Position numbers and translations under genes: made by a program. A stretch of 64,000 bases of DNA, taken from NCBI RefSeq assembly GCF_017255185.1, contig NZ_JAFKCZ010000003.1, positions 124,001 to 188,000 on the forward strand, read 5' to 3'. Source of the DNA: Parahaliea mediterranea. Its GTDB lineage: Bacteria; Pseudomonadota; Gammaproteobacteria; Pseudomonadales; Halieaceae. Below the pieces are notes generated by a model. The model saw nothing but the letters and a program-made list of their open reading frames with translations, did not search any database and was not told the origin of the DNA. Below are positions 26,074 to 46,859 of the stretch, piece after piece (position 1 is the stretch's first letter; the number at the start of each line of letters is the position of its first letter).

Positions 26074-26258
26074 GGGACAGACACCTAAAAATAGGTATCT
26101 GCACAATGGTACTTACTTAACCGTTGTAGGGCCGAATTTATTCGGCCATTGATGCCGTGAGCGCCTTTATTGGTCGAATGAATTCGACCCTACAGAGGGC
26201 AAAATACCCTGTTTTTCACTTAAGTAAGTGCCATTCGTATCCGTCCCCTATTTTTAGG
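26074..26258. mobile_element. MITE-like element with REP doublet and imperfect terminal inverted repeats
   Basis: The ends are inverted copies. The left arm (26074-26120) holds CCTAAAAATAGG, then AATGG-ACTTACTTAA; the right arm (26220-26258) holds the complement, TTAAGTAAGT-GCCATTCGTATCC and CCTATTTTTAGG. Between them lies a REP doublet bounded by TGTAGGG (26125) and CCCTACA (26194), with palindromes at 26130-26147 and 26172-26189. No ORF is inside. A second, diverged copy is at 58468-58675. The right end supplies the fliA stop codon. Movement by a RAYT/IS200-type transposase encoded elsewhere is inferred. Confidence 0.75.
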
Positions 26259-26961
26259 CGGGCTCGGCGAGGCGGCTGCGCAGCCGGCTGATGGCCTGGC
26301 TGTGCAGCTGGCACACACGGGACTCGCTGACGCCGAGGACCGCGCCAATTTCCTTGAGGTTGAGCTCTTCCTGGTAGTACAGGCCCATCAGAGTTTTCTC
26401 CCGCTCCGGGAGTTCCTCAATGGCGCGGACCAGCAATTTACGCTGCTCGCCCTCCAGCAGCGCGCCGAAGGGGGTTCGCGCGCCGGTATCGCCGGCGGCG
26501 GGCTCTCCGCTTTCCGCCACCATCTCTTCGTAGGGCAGCAGGAAACCGTTGTTGATATCGCCCAGCAACTGCTGGTATTCGTCCAGGGGCATGTCCAGCT
26601 CCGCCGCCACCTCGCGCTCCTCCGGCGGCCTGCCCAGGCGCTGGGTCAGGCGGTGCATCGCGCTCTCGACGTCGCGGGCATGACGGCGCACGCTGCGGGG
26701 CAACCAGTCCCTGGAACGGAGCTCGTCGATCATCGCGCCGCGTATGCGCTGGCTGGCAAAGGGCAGGAAAGCGGCCCCGGCGTTAGGGTCGAAGCGCCCC
26801 AGGGCGTCCAGTAAACCCACCGTCCCGGCCTGTATAAGGTCATCGAGATCGATGCTCGAGGGCAATTTAACCTGCAGCGCAAGGGCCTGTCGCCGTACCG
26901 CCGGCAGGTACTCCTGCAACAGTGTTTCCTGTGTAATCTTTCCCTGTGCCGTGTATGTCAT
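26254..26961 (-). CDS. fliA: Flagellar sigma factor FliA (sigma28)
   Basis: FliA directs RNA polymerase to late flagellar and chemotaxis promoters. The 235-residue protein has region 2 (LIQAGTVGLLDALGRFDPN ... FASQRIRGAMIDELRSRDW), region 3 (RRHARDVESAMHRLTQRLGRPP) and region 4 with its helix-turn-helix (LNLKEIGAVLGVSESRVCQLHSQA). ATG 26961 (MTYTAQGKITQ) gives the usual length; a longer reading to 27009 is unsupported. It ends the leftward flhB-flhA-flhF-flhE run. Five matching promoters occur in this window. Confidence 0.96.
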   Translation of the reverse strand: MTYTAQGKITQETLLQEYLPAVRRQALALQVKLPSSIDLDDLIQAGTVGLLDALGRFDPNAGAAFLPFASQRIRGAMIDELRSRDWLPRSVRRHARDVESAMHRLTQRLGRPPEEREVAAELDMPLDEYQQLLGDINNGFLLPYEEMVAESGEPAAGDTGARTPFGALLEGEQRKLLVRAIEELPEREKTLMGLYYQEELNLKEIGAVLGVSESRVCQLHSQAISRLRSRLAEPA

Positions 26962-27012
26962 GGCGATCCGACTCGTGCCTTCAAGCTGTCCAATAGGATT
27001 TCCCAGCAACCA

Positions 27013-27495
27013 TTATTCCGCCTCCGGGGCGAAACCATCCGCCAAATAAACGCCTTTGCCTGCGGTTATTTCCGCAATGGGAGCAGGGAAATAGTCCACC
27101 CCCAGGCGCAAGCCGCGAACCGACAGCGCACGACGCTCCCCCGCCGGCAGGGCAAAGCGAAAGCGGAACGGTCCGCCCGCCGGGGCACCCGCCAGCGCGG
27201 TGCTCGCGCCGCGCTGGCGCTGCAACGCAACGCAGCGCTCGCCACCGCACAGCCAGGCCTCGATCCCCCGGCCCGGCGGCAACTCGAAGCGCCAGCTGAC
27301 ACGCGATACCCGGCCGCCATCCACCGGCGCACTGTCGGGCGCCGACACGGGGTCGCTCCAGTACAGGCGATCCGGGGCAGCTATCCGCAGCCCCGGCAGC
27401 TCCCCGCTCCAACTGCCCGCGGCCGCGATCACCCGCGGCGCGACGAGCAGCACCACCAGGGCGCCGGCCAGTCGCCGGCGACGGGCGCGGGTCAC
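27013..27495 (-). CDS. flhE: Flagellar protein FlhE
   Basis: FlhE is a periplasmic protein best known from the enteric flhBAE operon, where it is linked to preventing proton leak through the export gate. This 160-residue protein has a signal peptide (basic start, ALVVLLVAPRVIAAA) and a beta-rich domain. It matches enteric FlhE in its key pattern: SWRFEL, then LCGGERCV, whose two cysteines correspond to the conserved disulfide pair, then FRFRFALPAGERR. GTG 27495 was chosen because it overlaps the upstream stop (GTGA). It lies between the FlhG-like gene and fliA, not directly after flhA as in enterics. Confidence 0.8.
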   Translation of the reverse strand: MTRARRRRLAGALVVLLVAPRVIAAAGSWSGELPGLRIAAPDRLYWSDPVSAPDSAPVDGGRVSRVSWRFELPPGRGIEAWLCGGERCVALQRQRGASTALAGAPAGGPFRFRFALPAGERRALSVRGLRLGVDYFPAPIAEITAGKGVYLADGFAPEAE

Positions 27496-27956
27496 CGGGC
27501 CAGCACCAGCAATTCGGTACCGAAGTAATCCGCCGCCGCCTGCTGCAGGTTGCCGAGCAGCCCGCGGCGCGGCAGCGTCGGGGGATGCAGGGCCAGCAGG
27601 CGCTTGGGGCCGCCCCGCGCCGCCAGGGCCTGGATCTGGCGAAAGGCGCGGCGGAAACCCTGCCGGTCGTGTTCCACCCACAGCCCCCAACGGGGTTGCT
27701 GGTTCGCCAGTACGGGAATGTAGGGGCTGGCCACGTCCATCGGCACGATGCGCCAGTCGCCGGGATCCCCGACCCAGTGGCGCCCCTCCTGCGCCCAGTG
27801 CCTCAGCAGGCGGGAAACCTCGTCGACGTCACCGCCACCCGCCCCTGACAGGCCGACCACGACCAGGGTCCGCTCGGCGCGCTGCCGTTGCACCGGCGTT
27901 ACCCCGCGCGAGCGCGCCCAGCGTCTCAGGCCCTCGGCCTGGTCCACTGCGATCAT
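27492..27956 (-). CDS. FlhG/FleN-like remnant with FlhF-contact motif but no ATPase domain
   Basis: This 154-residue ORF stands where FlhG (FleN) is expected, directly after flhF (4-base ATGA overlap) and before flhE/fliA. Residues 5-12 read DQAEGLRR, the DQAxxLR motif with which FlhG N-terminal helices activate the FlhF GTPase. Behind it, TLVVVGLSGAGGGDVDEV aligns in place with the MinD-type P-loop of FlhG but has no lysines and cannot be a Walker A motif. The remaining FlhG ATPase motifs are not seen. It may be a reduced FlhF activator. The reading is inferred from motif and position. Confidence 0.65.
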   Translation of the reverse strand: MIAVDQAEGLRRWARSRGVTPVQRQRAERTLVVVGLSGAGGGDVDEVSRLLRHWAQEGRHWVGDPGDWRIVPMDVASPYIPVLANQQPRWGLWVEHDRQGFRRAFRQIQALAARGGPKRLLALHPPTLPRRGLLGNLQQAAADYFGTELLVLAR

Positions 27957-30370
27957 GCGTTGCCGGCGGGCGCGGCCAGCGCCAACCGACGCAGGGCCTC
28001 GCGCTGGCTGAACAGCTGCATGACCGCCGCCAGCAACGAAGCCGCCGAGCGGCGCCGCGAGCGCCCACCCAGCGCCAGCAACTGGGCGCGGATATCCAAC
28101 GCCCAGTCGCTGTTGTCGCGCTCCAGGCGGATAGCCAGCGCGGCAATACCGTGGGCGGCGTAACGCAGCTGGGGGGTCTGGCCACGCCAGCCGGGCAGGC
28201 GTTCAACCAGGGTGTCCATGGCGGTGCGCCGCAAGGTGAAAAAGGCTTCCGCCGTCAGCTGCCGGGCGAACAGCGCGATGCAGCTCGCGTCGGCAAGCTC
28301 CGCGGGGGCCAACCAGTAGCGGCGGCCGAGCACACTGCCGGTGTCCAGGTGGCGCAACTCGCCAATCCAGGCATGGAGATAGCCCGAGCAGCGTCGGCGC
28401 CGCCCCCCGGCGGTGAGAAAGGCCGGCGCACGCTGCAGCCGGAGCTGCACCTGGCGGCCGCGGTAGGTCACCGTGGTCGCCCCGGCGGACTGCGCCAGCG
28501 CGCGCAGGCCGGACAGCGGCACCGCCTCGCCGCCGTGGCGCACCCGGGTGTTGTGCGAGGCCGTGGCGACCCAGTCGATGCCCCGCTCCAGCAGCGACAG
28601 CCAGGAGTGACTGTCGGGCACCGAGGCCAGCAACAGCGAGGGCTCGCCGGGAAGATCGGCCAACTCGCGAACGGCGCAGCCCGCCGATGGCGGAACCAGG
28701 GCCTGCCCGGCGTCATCCAGCGCCAGCGGCAGGGGGGCGCCATCCTTCGACCAGGCCAGGGTCGCTGACGCAGCCGGCACGGCGTCCAGGGGGTCCGGGA
28801 CATCACCGGCCCAGGCCCGCTCCAGCCCGCCCAGTCCGGCGAGCCTGCCATTCAGGGCATCCCAGGCGCTGTGCAGGGTGAGGCTGCGATCCAGGGGGTC
28901 GCGCCCCCCGCGCGCGCCGTCCTCGACGTGCTCCAAGGGCGGCGCCATCAATGCTTCTGTGATCAGGTCCTGGGCCACCGCCGGCGCCAGATCCTCCGGC
29001 ACCCGCTGGCCGTGGGCGACGAAGTTGACCCGCAGGCCGTGGCGCATCACCGCCGCCAGCGCCGGCCCCAGGCGCGGCGCTTCATCGAGCTTGGTAATAA
29101 TCGCATCGCGAATCTCGCTACCGCCGGCACGGGCGGCGCCGCGATAGGCGGCGATGGTGTCGTCGAGGTTCTCGGCGTGCGCCGCCGCATTGACCATCAG
29201 CAAGCCGCGCACCGCGCGATCGCTGCCGGCCAATTGGGTCATCTGCTCCACCAGGCGGTTGTCGCGCTGCCCCATGCCGGCGGTATCGACAATGAGCAGC
29301 GGCTTTTCCGCCAGGTGTCGCGGCAGGTCGGCGAGGTTGTCACCGGGCTCCAGGGCGTGCATTTCCACGCCCAGCAGCTCGGCGTAAACCCGCAGGTGGT
29401 CGCGGGCGCCAACCCGGTAGTGATCGGCGCTGACCAGGGCGATGCCCTCGGAGCCGTGGCGCATGGCGTAGCGCGCGGCCAGCTTCGCCGCGGTGGTGGT
29501 CTTGCCCACTCCGGTGGGGCCGATTAACGCCAGCACGCCCCCCTCGTCGAGTTCCGCCCCGGCGTCCTCCGCCACCCGCAGGCGCCCGATCAGCTGCCTG
29601 GCGAGCCAGGCGTCCATCGCCCGCCCCGTTTCCAGTCCCGTGGGCATCGCCGCCAGGATTTCCTCCGCCAGGCCCACGCCGAGGCCCGCGGCGAGAATAT
29701 TCCGGCGCACGGCTTCGACGCGGCCAGCATCGGCGCGGCCAGCATCGGCGCGGCCGGCTTCGGCGCGGCCGGCGTCAGCGCCTGCGCTGTCATCGGCGGT
29801 GCCGGTGCGGCCTTCCTCGTCCCGGGACCGCGGCGCCATCCTCGAGGCGTCCAGCAGTTCGCGCATCTCCTGGACCTCACGCAGCAGACGCTCGTGGGCC
29901 GCCAGCAAATCGTCGCCGGTAGCGGACGACACGGCCGGTGTCGGCTCGGCGACCGCCGCCGTCGCGGCGGCGACGGGATGGGCAAGCCCAGCGGGTGGCG
30001 CGCCCCGCGCGCCTTCGGCGGCGGCCTTCGCGGCAGCGGGTGCCGCGGCAAAATCCGCCGCGGCGTCGGCTGCCGCGACATTGGCTTCCACAGCATCGGC
30101 TGCCGCAGCAACGGCTGCCGCAGCAACGGCTGCCGCAGCATCGGCGGCCGCAACGTCGGCTGGCGCCGTATCGGCGGCCACTGTATCGAAACGCGGTGCA
30201 TCGACTGCCGCGGCTGTCACGGCGCCACTGTCGTGCTCGGTCATGGCGAGAATCTCAATGCCCGCCTCGGTGTGGCGATTGGCGAGGATCAGGGCATCCT
30301 CGCCCAGGCTGGCGCGCACCTGGCGCATCGCCTCGCGACTACTGGTTCCAACAAAACGCCTTACAGTCAT
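27953..30370 (-). CDS. flhF: Flagellar biosynthesis GTPase FlhF, with long C-terminal extension
   Basis: FlhF is an SRP-type GTPase that places or times flagellar assembly. The protein is 805 residues, while most FlhF proteins have about 400-500. Residues 1-45 are the FlhF B domain (MTVRRFVGTSSREAMRQVRA). About 50-145 is an alanine-rich low-complexity stretch, and 199-217 repeats AEAGRADAGR. The NG domain spans about 220-474 with the P-loop GPTGVGKTTT (284-293), DTAG (362) and TKLDE (426). Residues 475-805 form an extension I do not recognise. The start overlaps the flhA stop (ATGA). Confidence 0.92.
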   Translation of the reverse strand: MTVRRFVGTSSREAMRQVRASLGEDALILANRHTEAGIEILAMTEHDSGAVTAAAVDAPRFDTVAADTAPADVAAADAAAAVAAAAVAAAADAVEANVAAADAAADFAAAPAAAKAAAEGARGAPPAGLAHPVAAATAAVAEPTPAVSSATGDDLLAAHERLLREVQEMRELLDASRMAPRSRDEEGRTGTADDSAGADAGRAEAGRADAGRADAGRVEAVRRNILAAGLGVGLAEEILAAMPTGLETGRAMDAWLARQLIGRLRVAEDAGAELDEGGVLALIGPTGVGKTTTAAKLAARYAMRHGSEGIALVSADHYRVGARDHLRVYAELLGVEMHALEPGDNLADLPRHLAEKPLLIVDTAGMGQRDNRLVEQMTQLAGSDRAVRGLLMVNAAAHAENLDDTIAAYRGAARAGGSEIRDAIITKLDEAPRLGPALAAVMRHGLRVNFVAHGQRVPEDLAPAVAQDLITEALMAPPLEHVEDGARGGRDPLDRSLTLHSAWDALNGRLAGLGGLERAWAGDVPDPLDAVPAASATLAWSKDGAPLPLALDDAGQALVPPSAGCAVRELADLPGEPSLLLASVPDSHSWLSLLERGIDWVATASHNTRVRHGGEAVPLSGLRALAQSAGATTVTYRGRQVQLRLQRAPAFLTAGGRRRRCSGYLHAWIGELRHLDTGSVLGRRYWLAPAELADASCIALFARQLTAEAFFTLRRTAMDTLVERLPGWRGQTPQLRYAAHGIAALAIRLERDNSDWALDIRAQLLALGGRSRRRSAASLLAAVMQLFSQREALRRLALAAPAGNA

Positions 30371-32451
30371 TGATTCGCCCCTATCACATTGGTCATCCGC
30401 AGGCTGCGGTCATCGGGAATTTCAGCCTGCGACATCACCACGAGCTGTCTCAGGCGGCGGCGCAGGAAGTGCGCCAACAACGGTCTCAGGGCCGGTTGCA
30501 CCACCAGTACCGGCGGTTCGCCCGCCTCTTCCTGGCGGGCCAGGGCGGCCGCGCTCTCCGCCATCAGGGTGTCGGCCAGGCCCGGCTCCATGGCCTCGCC
30601 GCCGCTGATGGCCTGCATCAGTACCTGTTCGAGGGTGCTGTCGAGGCCGATGACATGCAGCTCCTCGCGCCCCGGGAACCATTGATGAGTGATGGCGCGG
30701 CCCAGCGCAATACGCACCTGCACAGTCAGCTCGTCGACGTCCGACTCGCCGGTGGCGCGCTCCGCCAGGGTATCGAGAATGGTGCGCATGTCGCGGATCG
30801 AAACATCTTCCTCGAGGAGGTTCTGCAGCAGGCGTTGCAGGGAGGTCAGCGACACCGCCTTGGGCACCACGTCCTCCACCAGGGCCTTGCTCTCGGCGCC
30901 GAGCTTGTCGAGCAACTGCTGCACCTCCTGGCGGCCCAGCATTTCCCCGGCGTGACGGTGCAGCAGGTGGTTGAGGTGGGTGGCGACCACCGTGCTGGCG
31001 TCGACCACGGTGTAACCGTAGACCTGCGCCAGGTCGCGCTGCCCTTCGTCGATCCACACCGCGGGCAGGCCAAAGGCCGGATCCCGGGTGGCCTCGCCCT
31101 CGACCTCGCCGCTCAATTCCCCGGGGTTGATCGCCAGCCACTTGCCCGGAAACGCCTCGCCGCGGCCCACTTCCGCGCCCTTCAGGGTCAGCACATAGGT
31201 ATTGGCGCCGAGTTCCAGGTTGTCGCGAATGTGCACCACCGGCGGCAGGAAACCGATATCCTGGGCGAACTTCTTGCGCACGCTCTTGATCCGGCCCAAC
31301 AACTCGCCCTGCTGGCGGTGGTCGACCAGCGGAATCAGGCGGTGCCCCACTTCCAGGCCCAGGGTATCGACCAACTGAACGTCGTCCCAGCTCGCCTCCG
31401 GCGCCTCGGGAACCGGCGGCGGCCCGGTATTGATCTGCTCCTCGGCAATGCGGTTGTCACGCTGTCGCGTCAGCCACCAGGCGGCGCCGCCCAGCAGTCC
31501 GGTAAACAGCAGGAAAACCAGGTTGGGCATACCCGGCACCAGGCCGAGCAGGCCCATGACCCCCGCCGACAATGCCATGACCTTGGGGTTGATCAGCAGC
31601 TGGCTGATCATCTGCTGGCCCACATCCTGGTCGGTATTGACCCGCGACACGGTGACACCCGCGGCGGTGGAGATCACCAGGGCCGGGATCTGCGCCACCA
31701 GGCCATCGCCAATGGTAAGCAGGGTGTAGGTGCGCCCGGCGTCGGCGAATGACATATCGTGCTGCAACATGCCGATCAGCAGCCCGCCGATGATATTGAC
31801 CACCATGATCACCAGGCCGGCCATGGCGTCGCCGCGCACGAATTTGCTGGCGCCGTCCATGGAACCGTAGAAGTCGGCCTCCTGGGCCACCTCCGCGCGG
31901 CGCGACTTGGCCTCCTCCTCGCCGATCAGACCGGCGTTGAGATCGGCGTCGATGGCCATCTGCTTGCCGGGCATGGCGTCCAGCATGAAGCGCGCGCCCA
32001 CCTCGGCGATACGCCCGGCGCCCTTGGTAATCACCATGAAATTGATCACCACCAGAATCAGGAACACCACCAGGCCGACCGCGAAATTGCCGCCCACCAG
32101 GAACTGGCCAAAGGCCTCGATGACCCGTCCCGCGGCGTCGCCCCCCTGGTGCCCCTCCATCAGCACCACCCGTGTGGAGGCCACATTCAGGGACAGTCGC
32201 AGCAGGGTGGTGAACAGCAGCACCGCCGGAAACGCGGCGAACTGCAGGGCGTTGAGCGTGAACATGCTGACCAGCAGCACCATCACCGCCAACGCGATAT
32301 TGAAGGTAAAGAACAGGTCGAGGGCGAATGGCGGCAGCGGCAGGATCAGCATCGCCATCACCAGCAGGATAAGCAGCGGCCCCGCCAATACCTGCATCTG
32401 CGCGCGATCGAACATGCCGCTGTTGCCGAAATAACGGGTCAGCGTATTCAT
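30367..32451 (-). CDS. flhA: Flagellar export gate protein FlhA
   Basis: FlhA forms the nonameric ring of the flagellar type III export gate. The 694-residue protein has eight membrane helices in its N-terminal half, the FHIPEP-family signature region (RLSLNVASTRVVLMEGHQGGDAAGRVIEAFGQF) and the cytoplasmic RIAEVGARFMLDAMPGKQMAIDADLNAG segment. The C-terminal cytoplasmic domain binds substrates and chaperones. Starts and stops overlap by four bases with flhB and flhF, so the three are translationally coupled. Confidence 0.98.
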   Translation of the reverse strand: MNTLTRYFGNSGMFDRAQMQVLAGPLLILLVMAMLILPLPPFALDLFFTFNIALAVMVLLVSMFTLNALQFAAFPAVLLFTTLLRLSLNVASTRVVLMEGHQGGDAAGRVIEAFGQFLVGGNFAVGLVVFLILVVINFMVITKGAGRIAEVGARFMLDAMPGKQMAIDADLNAGLIGEEEAKSRRAEVAQEADFYGSMDGASKFVRGDAMAGLVIMVVNIIGGLLIGMLQHDMSFADAGRTYTLLTIGDGLVAQIPALVISTAAGVTVSRVNTDQDVGQQMISQLLINPKVMALSAGVMGLLGLVPGMPNLVFLLFTGLLGGAAWWLTRQRDNRIAEEQINTGPPPVPEAPEASWDDVQLVDTLGLEVGHRLIPLVDHRQQGELLGRIKSVRKKFAQDIGFLPPVVHIRDNLELGANTYVLTLKGAEVGRGEAFPGKWLAINPGELSGEVEGEATRDPAFGLPAVWIDEGQRDLAQVYGYTVVDASTVVATHLNHLLHRHAGEMLGRQEVQQLLDKLGAESKALVEDVVPKAVSLTSLQRLLQNLLEEDVSIRDMRTILDTLAERATGESDVDELTVQVRIALGRAITHQWFPGREELHVIGLDSTLEQVLMQAISGGEAMEPGLADTLMAESAAALARQEEAGEPPVLVVQPALRPLLAHFLRRRLRQLVVMSQAEIPDDRSLRMTNVIGANQ

Positions 32452-33602
32452 TGCTCCTGGCCCTCCCCGGCCGGCACATTAAGCTCCGCCGGCACCGGCA
32501 GGTCGCGGGGTTGCGCGGGCGAAACGCCGCCCTCCTGGCGCACCCGCCGCAGGCGGAATGCCCAGGCCAGGACCTCGGCCACGGCGGTGTAGAGCCCCGC
32601 GGGAATCTCGCGATCCAGGTCCACGTGGCGATACAGCGCACGCGCCAGCGGCGGCGCCTCCATCAAGGGCACCCGGTGTTCCGCCGCCAGCGAGCGAATG
32701 CGTTCGGCGACCGCGTCCACGCCCTTGGCCACCACCCGGGGGGCGGACATGTTCGCCTCGTCGTAGCGCAGCGCCACGGCGTAGTGGGTCGGGTTGGTCA
32801 CGATGACATCCGCCTCCGGCACCTTGCTCATCATCCGCGACCGCGCCACGCTCTGCTGCTGCGAGCGGATGCGCGCCTTGAGCTGAGGGTCGCCCTCGGT
32901 TTCCTTGTGCTCGCGGCGGATCTCGTCCTTGGTCATGCGCAATTTCTTGGCATGGCTCCACAACTGGTAGGGCACGTCGATCAGGATCACCACCACCAGC
33001 ACGAGAACCATCCAGCCGCAGGCCGCCGCGGCCATGCGCACGGTGTTGGCCAGCGCCTGGTCAATAGGCAGGTCCATCAAGGCCATGTATTCGCCGCGAT
33101 GCGCGACCAGGTAGGACACCACCACGCCGCCGACCAGCAGCGACTTGGCCACGGCCTTGGCCAGCTCCGCCAGCGCCTGGCTGGAAAACTGCCGCTTCAG
33201 GCCCTTGATGGGATTGAGTTTGGAGAACTGGGGTTTGAGGGATTTGGCGGATAGCGACCAGCCGCCCAGCAGCATCGGCGAGGCCAGCGCCAGCAGGGCC
33301 AGCAGCGCGAACAGGGGCAGTAGCGAGTACAGGGTGCGCTCGCCGAGGACCGCCGCATGGGTCACCATCACGCTGGTTTCGAGGGCCTGGCGCCGCTCGA
33401 ACAGGAAGGATTGCTCCATGACCTGCCCCAGCTGCCCGGCCAGCACGGTACCGAGAGCCCACAAGCCACCGACGCCACCCAGCAGCAGCATAAAGGTGGC
33501 CAGTTCCCGGGATCGGGGAACCTGCCCCTCCTCCCGCGCCTTTTCCAGGCGCCGGGGGGTGGCGGCTTCGGTCTTTTCCTGGTCGCTACTGTCGTCGGCC
33601 AT
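32448..33602 (-). CDS. flhB: Flagellar export switch protein FlhB
   Basis: FlhB switches export specificity from rod/hook to filament proteins by self-cleavage. The 384-residue protein has four membrane helices. A cytoplasmic domain follows with the cleavage site NPTH (VIVTNPTHYAVALRYDE) and a proline-rich C-terminal tail. ATG 33602 (MADDSSDQEKTEAATPRRLE) is the family's normal start; the longer reading to 33659 is not supported. It follows cheZ after 143 bases. A separate small FlhB-like protein is encoded at 47017-47325. Confidence 0.97.
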   Translation of the reverse strand: MADDSSDQEKTEAATPRRLEKAREEGQVPRSRELATFMLLLGGVGGLWALGTVLAGQLGQVMEQSFLFERRQALETSVMVTHAAVLGERTLYSLLPLFALLALLALASPMLLGGWSLSAKSLKPQFSKLNPIKGLKRQFSSQALAELAKAVAKSLLVGGVVVSYLVAHRGEYMALMDLPIDQALANTVRMAAAACGWMVLVLVVVILIDVPYQLWSHAKKLRMTKDEIRREHKETEGDPQLKARIRSQQQSVARSRMMSKVPEADVIVTNPTHYAVALRYDEANMSAPRVVAKGVDAVAERIRSLAAEHRVPLMEAPPLARALYRHVDLDREIPAGLYTAVAEVLAWAFRLRRVRQEGGVSPAQPRDLPVPAELNVPAGEGQEQ

Positions 33603-33745
33603 GTCGGACTGGGGGGAATACCTGAATAGTGCCGGCCATTGTCGGCAATACTCCGGCACACCGATCCGACGATAAACGCCGCCTAAGGTGCCTTATTCGC
33701 GCTTATGCCCGCGGGACGGCCGCGCCGCCCAATGCCAGGCGCTGT

Positions 33746-45790: not shown

Positions 45791-46321
45791 CTAGCGGCTG
45801 TTGGCCTGCAGCGAGGTCTTGCCGGCCCGCGAGGGAGGCTGGCAAATGCCGCAGACGTAATCGCTATTGGGCGTGTGCGCGTGCATGACGAAGTGGCCGG
45901 CGCAGCGGGTGCACTCGGACAGCTCGAACAGGCCGCTCTCGAAAAATCGAATCAGGGTCCAGGCCCGGGTAAGCCCCAGCACCGGCTCCGCGTCTTCCAG
46001 CGCCAACTGCTCCAGGTAGAGGCGGTAGGCTTTGGTAAAGCCCTCCATCCGGTCACAGCCCAGGGTGACGGTGAGCTGGCGGTAGAAGTTGTAAAACAGT
46101 GACGAATGAATGTTCGGCTGCCAGGTCACGAACCAGTCGGTGGAGAAGGGCAGCATGCCCTTGGGCGGGGACATCCCCCGCACTTCCTTGTACAGCCGCA
46201 CCAACCTGCCCCGACTCAGATCGGTCTCCGTTTCCAGTACCTGCAAGCGGGCACCCAGCTCAATCAACTCGATGGCCAGCTGCACCTGCTGCATCTCTGC
46301 GACCAGACTTTTTCCCGACAT
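45791..46321 (-). CDS. flhC: Flagellar master regulator subunit FlhC
   Basis: FlhC and FlhD form the hetero-hexamer that switches on early flagellar operons. The 176-residue protein has the helical DNA-binding part ([32 protein letters not shown]) and a C-terminal zinc site of four cysteines (CTRC ... CGIC), as in enteric FlhC. It starts three bases after flhD ends. FlhDC is usual in enterics, Burkholderia and some others; polar flagellates use FleQ/FlrA. Confidence 0.95.
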
Positions 46322-46324
46322 ACC

Positions 46325-46669
46325 TCAGACCCCCTCCACCGTATTCAACGCGCTCGATGGCGGCAGCGAAGCCATTAGCAAGGAGGTATGCATCAGGTCC
46401 ATGCCCTGGCTGCGCTCATTCTGGGTCAGTTGCGACAGGTGGCTGGCGTCGCTGATGCAAAAGCGGAACAGCAACTGGTTGGTGCGCGCCAGCCTGCCTA
46501 GCTGCTTGGCCGAGAGGGACAGCAGCAGCCGCCCGGTCTCGTCGTCGACCTTCAGGCGCATCAGCGCCATGGTGTAGTCTTCCTTCAACAGGCGTTGGGC
46601 GATGAGCAAATAGCTCAGATTCAGGTCCTGGATTTCAACCAGGTCGACATTATTTTCACTCACGGACAT
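46325..46669 (-). CDS. flhD: Flagellar master regulator subunit FlhD
   Basis: The 114-residue protein matches FlhD in length and sequence: EIQDLNLSYLLIAQRLLKEDYTMALMRL, then LGRLARTNQLLFRFCISDASHLSQLTQNER, with the cysteine that can bridge the dimer. ATG 46669 was chosen because GAGG lies just upstream and it gives the normal N terminus. A leader of about 185 bases separates it from a predicted sigma70 promoter. It heads the region's flagellar hierarchy. Confidence 0.95.
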   Translation of the reverse strand: MSVSENNVDLVEIQDLNLSYLLIAQRLLKEDYTMALMRLKVDDETGRLLLSLSAKQLGRLARTNQLLFRFCISDASHLSQLTQNERSQGMDLMHTSLLMASLPPSSALNTVEGV

Positions 46670-46859
46670 GGCACCTCGTGCAATTCGGCCGGAGCTGTAC
46701 CTCCGATCCCTACTAAAACGACATACGGGTGCGCTCTTGGTGGCGAACTCCGCGAACTGACTTGCATCCCTGCCGATGTTGGCCTGCACTTAGCGAGACT
46801 GGAATTCAGCGCCGTCCGGGCGCGTCATGCCCCATCTCGGTGCATGTTGTTTTAAGCCT

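Follow-up and report, generated by a model that had tools for sequence, protein, structure and literature searches.

A small protein of 154 residues, encoded directly behind flhF in the stretch of Parahaliea mediterranea DNA analyzed here (64,000 nucleotides, in the following termed the window), represents a genuine variation on the FlhF-FlhG switch, conserved among relatives, and we found no description of it. FlhG combines several tasks, i.e., it activates FlhF, controls the number of flagella, cycles on the membrane and restrains a transcription activator. With a probability that we put at about 0.6, the small protein is an FlhG relative that has been shortened, lacks the ATPase and serves as a standing activator of FlhF. 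A standalone activator of FlhF, which a sequence-only reading of this DNA had already considered undescribed, was not found in open PubMed Central texts, nor was any account of a transposase-like domain in FlhF, the second unusual element of this locus.

The Small Gene and Its Family

All genes considered here reside on the minus strand, in the order flhD (46325..46789), flhC (45791..46321), motA, motB, cheA, cheW, a receptor gene, cheR, cheB, another receptor gene, cheY, cheZ, flhB (32448..33659), flhA (30367..32451), flhF (27953..30370), the small gene (27492..27956), flhE (27013..27495) and fliA (26254..26961), with cheA, cheR, cheY and the receptor genes named by eye and with flhD (86.3 bits, cut-off 90 bits) and cheW scoring just below the cut-offs of their models. 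For fliA, the reading frame opens at 27009, and the start MTYTAQGK at 26961 was chosen by comparison with relatives. ATGA overlaps connect flhB with flhA, flhA with flhF and flhF with the small gene, the stop of which forms a GTGA overlap with the GTG start of flhE. As such overlaps join all five, translation along flhB-flhA-flhF-small gene-flhE is probably coupled from each gene to the next. Enterobacterial clusters are arranged as flhDC-motAB-che-flhBAE; the window has the same order, except that flhA and flhE are separated by flhF and the small gene. In the accessible part of one report, flhF and flhG are mentioned within such operons with no comment on the ATPase (PMC11247099).

The motif DQAEGLRR, located by the sequence-only reading at residues 5-12 of an ORF at the flhG place, is indeed found there (D5-Q6-A7-E8-G9-L10-R11-R12), and the ORF lacks Walker A. 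Sequence, alignment and structure model agree with a build of three parts that characterizes the whole family: a conserved N-terminal helix (residues 5-17, 27906..27944), a variable linker and a compact alpha/beta domain (residues 28-154, 27495..27875). All 17 aligned relatives share D5, Q6, A7, L10 and R11, and mean pairwise identity amounts to 72% for the helix, 15% for the linker and 50% for the domain. For 92 close pairs, dN/dS values of 0.08 (helix), 0.49 (linker) and 0.12 (domain) were obtained, with synonymous sites near saturation and at least one protein entered twice among the 86 sequences. Protein length in this set ranges from 143 to 241 aa, and according to a rough pattern about 10-103 residues separate helix and domain.

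None of the 86 sequences contains a Walker A motif, be it of the general or the MinD type (KGGxGK); GK[STN] occurs in four of them, at other places and outside any Walker context. The motifs DADLG and DTxAG, invariant in 17 ordinary FlhG proteins, are likewise absent from the small protein, and visual inspection of the alignment of 17 sequences revealed neither of them. The stretch GLSGAGGGDV, formerly interpreted as a decayed P-loop, should not be taken for a half-kept one, because the glycine run is private to the window genome and relatives feature GLPGTS.., GLDCDSGS or GDPLPAQ. The related claim that nothing else of the ATPase is left holds true for the nucleotide-binding parts but not for the remainder, where a conserved five-strand alpha/beta domain persists.

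A profile derived from three sequences, helix included, matched 23 of 390 genomes of the order, and 18 of these matches, the window genome among them, were taken as true. Five weak ones (E 6e-5 to 1e-3) were discarded: G002, G389 and G406 turned out to be other genes on reading, and G004 and G400 have stops inside. With G006 as well as G072, G207 and G286, the latter three identified by position after a long flhF, 22 genomes resulted. DQAxxLR is present in all 22, just as the sequence-only reading had demanded of homologues. In one of them, G327 (L185), flhF and the small gene are both frame-broken, reflecting assembly error or decay, and the motif resides in the first piece of the small gene. 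In G072, G207 and G286 (L177, L178 and L179, one genus), DQASGLRQWS is kept and the domain has drifted almost beyond the reach of the profile.

A scan of named genomes revealed 135 relatives, from which 80 loci were kept; the small gene was read in 79 of them, that of L095 lying beyond the range of reading. Most of the 80 loci stem from Halomonas, Billgrantia, Vreelandella, Modicisalibacter and other Halomonadaceae, accompanied by Aliidiomarina, Idiomarina, Pseudidiomarina, two Parahaliea, Alcanivorax, Alloalcanivorax and, among the Pseudomonadaceae, Azotobacter vinelandii, Stutzerimonas stutzeri K1 and Pseudomonas linyingensis, such that the family extends over Halomonadaceae, Idiomarinaceae, Halieaceae, Alcanivorax and a few Pseudomonadaceae. 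Since 79 of the 86 family sequences were collected with a pattern that includes the motif, helix conservation is inflated, and the motif count in the 79 named loci is no proof. A profile of the domain alone, run on all ORFs of the collected loci, most of them gathered via the motif, gave 109 matches, 106 with the motif; the other three are the second piece of the broken G327 gene, collected three times. As a domain-only profile matched only two of 369 genomes in an even draw of the class, window genome included, the family is narrow. In Parahaliea aestuarii, G006 and G327, fliA comes after the small gene without an flhE frame in between, and within the stretch read neither flhE nor fliA follows the small gene in G072, G207 and G286.

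Among 4871 ORFs of at least 100 aa from the window and the collected loci, which are mostly flagellar neighborhoods, 124 carry DQAxxLR within their first 30 residues. FlhG profile matches account for 32 and matches to the domain-only profile of the small protein for 88, and the remaining four (three distinct genes) sit directly after a long flhF. The motif is therefore not a product of chance. When 17 members were searched, Pfam, NCBIfam and PHROGs offered no family for the small protein, stray matches of single members (best E 0.11 and 0.007) being taken as chance, and no relative was detected by sequence among solved structures (one stray match, E 0.1) or in viral contigs. The small protein belongs to a conserved family and is no decayed remnant.

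FlhG in Genomes With and Without the Small Gene

The window genome is 98.7% complete and contains MinD. A separate full-length FlhG or FleN, for which a genome search had been suggested, was found in it neither with the Pfam CbiA model nor with an FlhG profile. For CbiA this statement covers ten of 20 matches (L030-L039), recognized by eye as Soj, a second ParA, CobQ, MinD, Mrp, BioD, Ffh, two tyrosine kinases and CTP synthase, with L040, L041 and eight weaker matches outside that reading; the FlhG profile gave two matches, the better one at the MinD place (E 5.8e-23). The same profile was run on 28 genomes with the small gene (27 distinct, G014 being identical with G785) and on two controls, which were recovered with E 5.7e-155 and 1.3e-118. 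In 24 of the 27 distinct genomes no full-length FlhG was found, at best a partial match over about the first 167 positions with E 1e-23 or weaker. A full FleN (E 1e-84 to 1e-121) is present in the other three, Azotobacter vinelandii, S. stutzeri K1 and P. linyingensis (G778, G779 and G780). Their FleN has no second FlhF at its side, as the long FlhF beside the small gene is the only one in each of these genomes. For A. vinelandii, an earlier study reports in its available sections that fleQ and fleN are not linked to flagellar genes and that fleQ is dispensable for flagella (PMC2885672).

The FlhF profile matched 271 genomes of the order; in 110 of them, taken best-scoring first, and in nine chosen stretches, i.e., 119 loci in total, the gene downstream of flhF was surveyed. 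In 112 loci flhF is short (stop-to-stop frame 378-639), and an FlhG ATPase is encoded downstream in 103 of these, 98 times with Walker A but not the motif (one of them with the near-motif NQAEGLQ), twice with both and three times with a full profile match and no Walker A by pattern. In the seven loci with long or broken flhF, the small gene follows, five times by profile and twice by eye. The usual FlhG in this order is an ATPase without the helix, and the small protein keeps the motif but no ATPase. Its mirror image is FleN of Pseudomonas and relatives, which occupies the same gene place and for which, in pseudomonads, the lack of the DQAxxLR helix is stated in the accessible text of PMC12713375. 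Elsewhere in the class, among the 30 best-scoring FlhG loci, retrieved with a query that contained the motif, 25 carry DQAxxLR ahead of Walker A and two more DQAxGMR; the helix of the small protein is close to the DQAxGLRxM that heads these ordinary FlhG proteins. Nine short-flhF loci have no FlhG profile match downstream, namely L240, L246, L249, L250, L252, L258, L259 and L272 (one genus, f27 g54) and L318, and in L240, L246, L249, L252 and L318 a fliA-like frame directly follows flhF.

The Long FlhF and Its C-Terminal Domain

FlhF of the window comprises 805 aa, includes an SRP-type GTPase domain with its motifs (residues 279-473) and is about 330 residues longer than usual. Its linker (residues ~50-220) is very alanine-rich and includes a DAGRAEAGRADAGRADAGR repeat. 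In 79 of 79 named loci read, the small gene is adjoined by a frame of 681-818 aa, 65 of these frames matching the FlhF GTPase pattern and 14 being assigned by size and place. The 27 genomes with the small gene possess one FlhF each, with an open frame of 683-818 except in the broken G327, as opposed to 384-445 in four ordinary genomes used for comparison.

Residues 454-805 were modeled together with 20 relatives (pLDDT 84.5, pTM 0.83), and the C-terminal domain (residues ~523-802, 27965..28804) is predicted to fold like Tn5 transposase. All six Foldseek matches below E 0.001 are Tn5 transposase or its inhibitor (best E 1e-6, TM 0.39). Upon realignment, the Tn5 inhibitor reached Z 14.4 over 267 residues with an rmsd of 5.0 and the others of the six 12.0-12.7, followed by piggyBac with 6.9 and Argonaute with 5.8 and below. 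While Tn5/IS4-family transposases and the extension share the predicted fold, the latter has no detectable sequence similarity to them and no conserved acidic column: in 21 extensions, no acidic residue of a DDE triad is found in invariant or 90% columns past residue 7 of the modeled piece, so the domain is not expected to cut DNA. Pfam revealed no transposase family at E ≤1 in the 21 members, its matches being three stray ones. A sequence link to IS4 transposases found no support, as hhalign against ten proteins gave E 0.37 and six of 40 shuffles scored as high; an alignment by eye that looked suggestive was not counted. That the extension might represent a captured transposase is a guess based on the model.

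The extra C-terminal part is spanned by the NCBIfam model NF011312/PRK14723 (long FlhF, 768 positions), which 19 of the 21 extensions match. Its name says only FlhF and refers to no domain, the Tn5-like fold being proposed here from the structure model, and long FlhF proteins score far below its cut-off where scores were seen (327 vs. 951 bits for FlhF of the window). A profile of the extension gave 24 matches in 274 genomes of the class, at full length only in the window genome and in G072; 21 are confined to the first 58 positions or fewer, where the GTPase domain ends, and the match in G660 is partial (E 3e-6).

The company of this extension lends some weight to a different reading, in which the conserved domain is the working part and links FlhF, perhaps via its new C-terminal domain, to a flagellar component such as FliM/FliN, with the helix mainly binding FlhF and stimulating its GTPase little. 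An adaptor of this kind would agree with the strong purifying selection on the domain, with the 681-818 aa frame beside 79 of 79 small genes and with the binding of FliM by ordinary FlhG, as reported in the part of PMC11236974 accessible to us. In three genomes, however, it is the domain that has diverged almost beyond recognition and the helix that is intact, and we regard the adaptor as possible though unlikely.

Fold, Proposed Function and Association With FlhDC

For the small protein, AlphaFold2 modeling with 17 sequences (mean pLDDT 86.8, ~70 over the helix) suggested a helix at residues 6-16 and a five-strand alpha/beta domain. Foldseek yielded no match below E 0.001 and listed FleN third (E 2.5e-3) among reductases and flavodoxins. 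Upon realignment, the TadZ receiver domain and FlhG (4rz3) tied at Z 7.5, FleN reached 6.7, and other receivers and small GTPases 6-7. Z values of about 7 are common for folds of this kind. FlhG structures 4rz3 and 4rz2 align co-linearly over 122 residues, model residues 27-154 being superimposed on 21-225 of the chain. Across this part the small protein is about 80 residues shorter, and the loss would comprise the residues carrying Walker A, DADLG and DTxAG. It stops at the place of FlhG residue 225, such that the C-terminal membrane helix is absent, as is the tail of the LEFFVERL type that ordinary FlhG of this order carries. In profile comparison, hhalign paired residues 92-152 with FlhG 162-225, a weak match (E 0.033-0.04, probability under 2%, with 1.6% at E 0.033) with a local score that beats 40 of 40 column shuffles; its global mode gave no usable alignment, 25 of 40 shuffles scoring as high. 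Compared with FlhG/YlxH/FleN, the small gene occupies the same place after flhF and the protein shares the N-terminal DQAxxLR with FlhG of much of the class, in partial agreement of folds, but differs by its missing Walker A and membrane helix, its shorter length and the variable linker.

A descent of the domain from FlhG is likely, short of proof. Alternatively, a DQAxxLR helix may have been joined to an unrelated receiver- or Rossmann-like domain that replaced the FlhG body, in which case the activator function may still hold. Such an origin would explain the tie with the TadZ receiver and the reductases and flavodoxins beside FleN in Foldseek, but it is hard to reconcile with the co-linear alignment to FlhG 21-225, with a profile match that pairs the same order of elements and with the identical gene place, and we consider it improbable.

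The reading as an FlhF activator draws on the enhancer helix of FlhG, which according to the sections available of PMC12826062 stimulates FlhF via a co-catalytic glutamine. Judged from the sequence, the small protein may stimulate the FlhF GTPase likewise: its helix, modeled with a confidence of only ~70, would dock on the GTP-bound FlhF homodimer with Gln6 as co-catalytic residue, triggering GTP hydrolysis and release of the dimer. Because the parts for ATP binding, MinD-like dimerization and membrane insertion are missing, neither ATP nor the membrane nor a transcription activator would gate activation; it would always be on, its level being set by translational coupling with FlhF. Lacking ATP binding and membrane helix, the small protein should not cycle like FlhG. 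The compact domain must have a function, since selection keeps it in most lineages; our guess is that it anchors the small protein to FlhF or to the C-ring, with the modified C-terminal domain of FlhF as first candidate dock.

Stimulation by the small protein being deduced from its sequence and the FlhF partner being altered, one could also imagine a helix that binds to FlhF but does not stimulate it and prolongs the GTP-bound state, but the putatively co-catalytic glutamine is invariant in 17 of 17 relatives, rendering a blocker very improbable. A decaying flhG that has lost its function, as the shortness of the protein and the broken frame in G327 might insinuate, can be practically dismissed in view of dN/dS values of 0.08-0.12, retention across several families and overlapping genes.

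The pair of small protein and long FlhF goes with the FlhDC regulator, and the proposed activator would act in FlhDC-driven flagella. FlhC is encoded in 30 of 30 genomes with the small protein (E 2e-73 or better) and in one of 30 with short FlhF (G151, weak, E 7e-15), the latter set consisting of 26 genomes with a confirmed FlhG ATPase plus G160, G183, G226 and G239. Where FlhDC runs the flagellar genes, the restraint of FleQ/FlrA by FlhG may lack an object, and because no activator of this type would be left to restrain, the ATPase could go, which would explain its loss. The enterobacterial flhBAE cluster has neither flhF nor flhG, and the variant suggests how enterobacteria could have lost both. 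We tentatively propose a rebuilt FlhF switch in FlhDC-driven flagella, with a captured transposase-fold domain on FlhF and FlhG cut down to an ATP-free activator docking there; flhBA-flhF-X-flhE, X being the small gene, might then be a living stage between full flhF-flhG clusters and flhBAE.

With the activator helix detached from the ATPase, the role of FlhF activation alone becomes testable, e.g., in Azotobacter vinelandii. This organism has peritrichous flagella under FlhDC, and Chromohalobacter is also peritrichous, both according to the available sections of PMC2885672. In Azotobacter as well as in G072 and G006, flhC is located far from flhF or on another contig.
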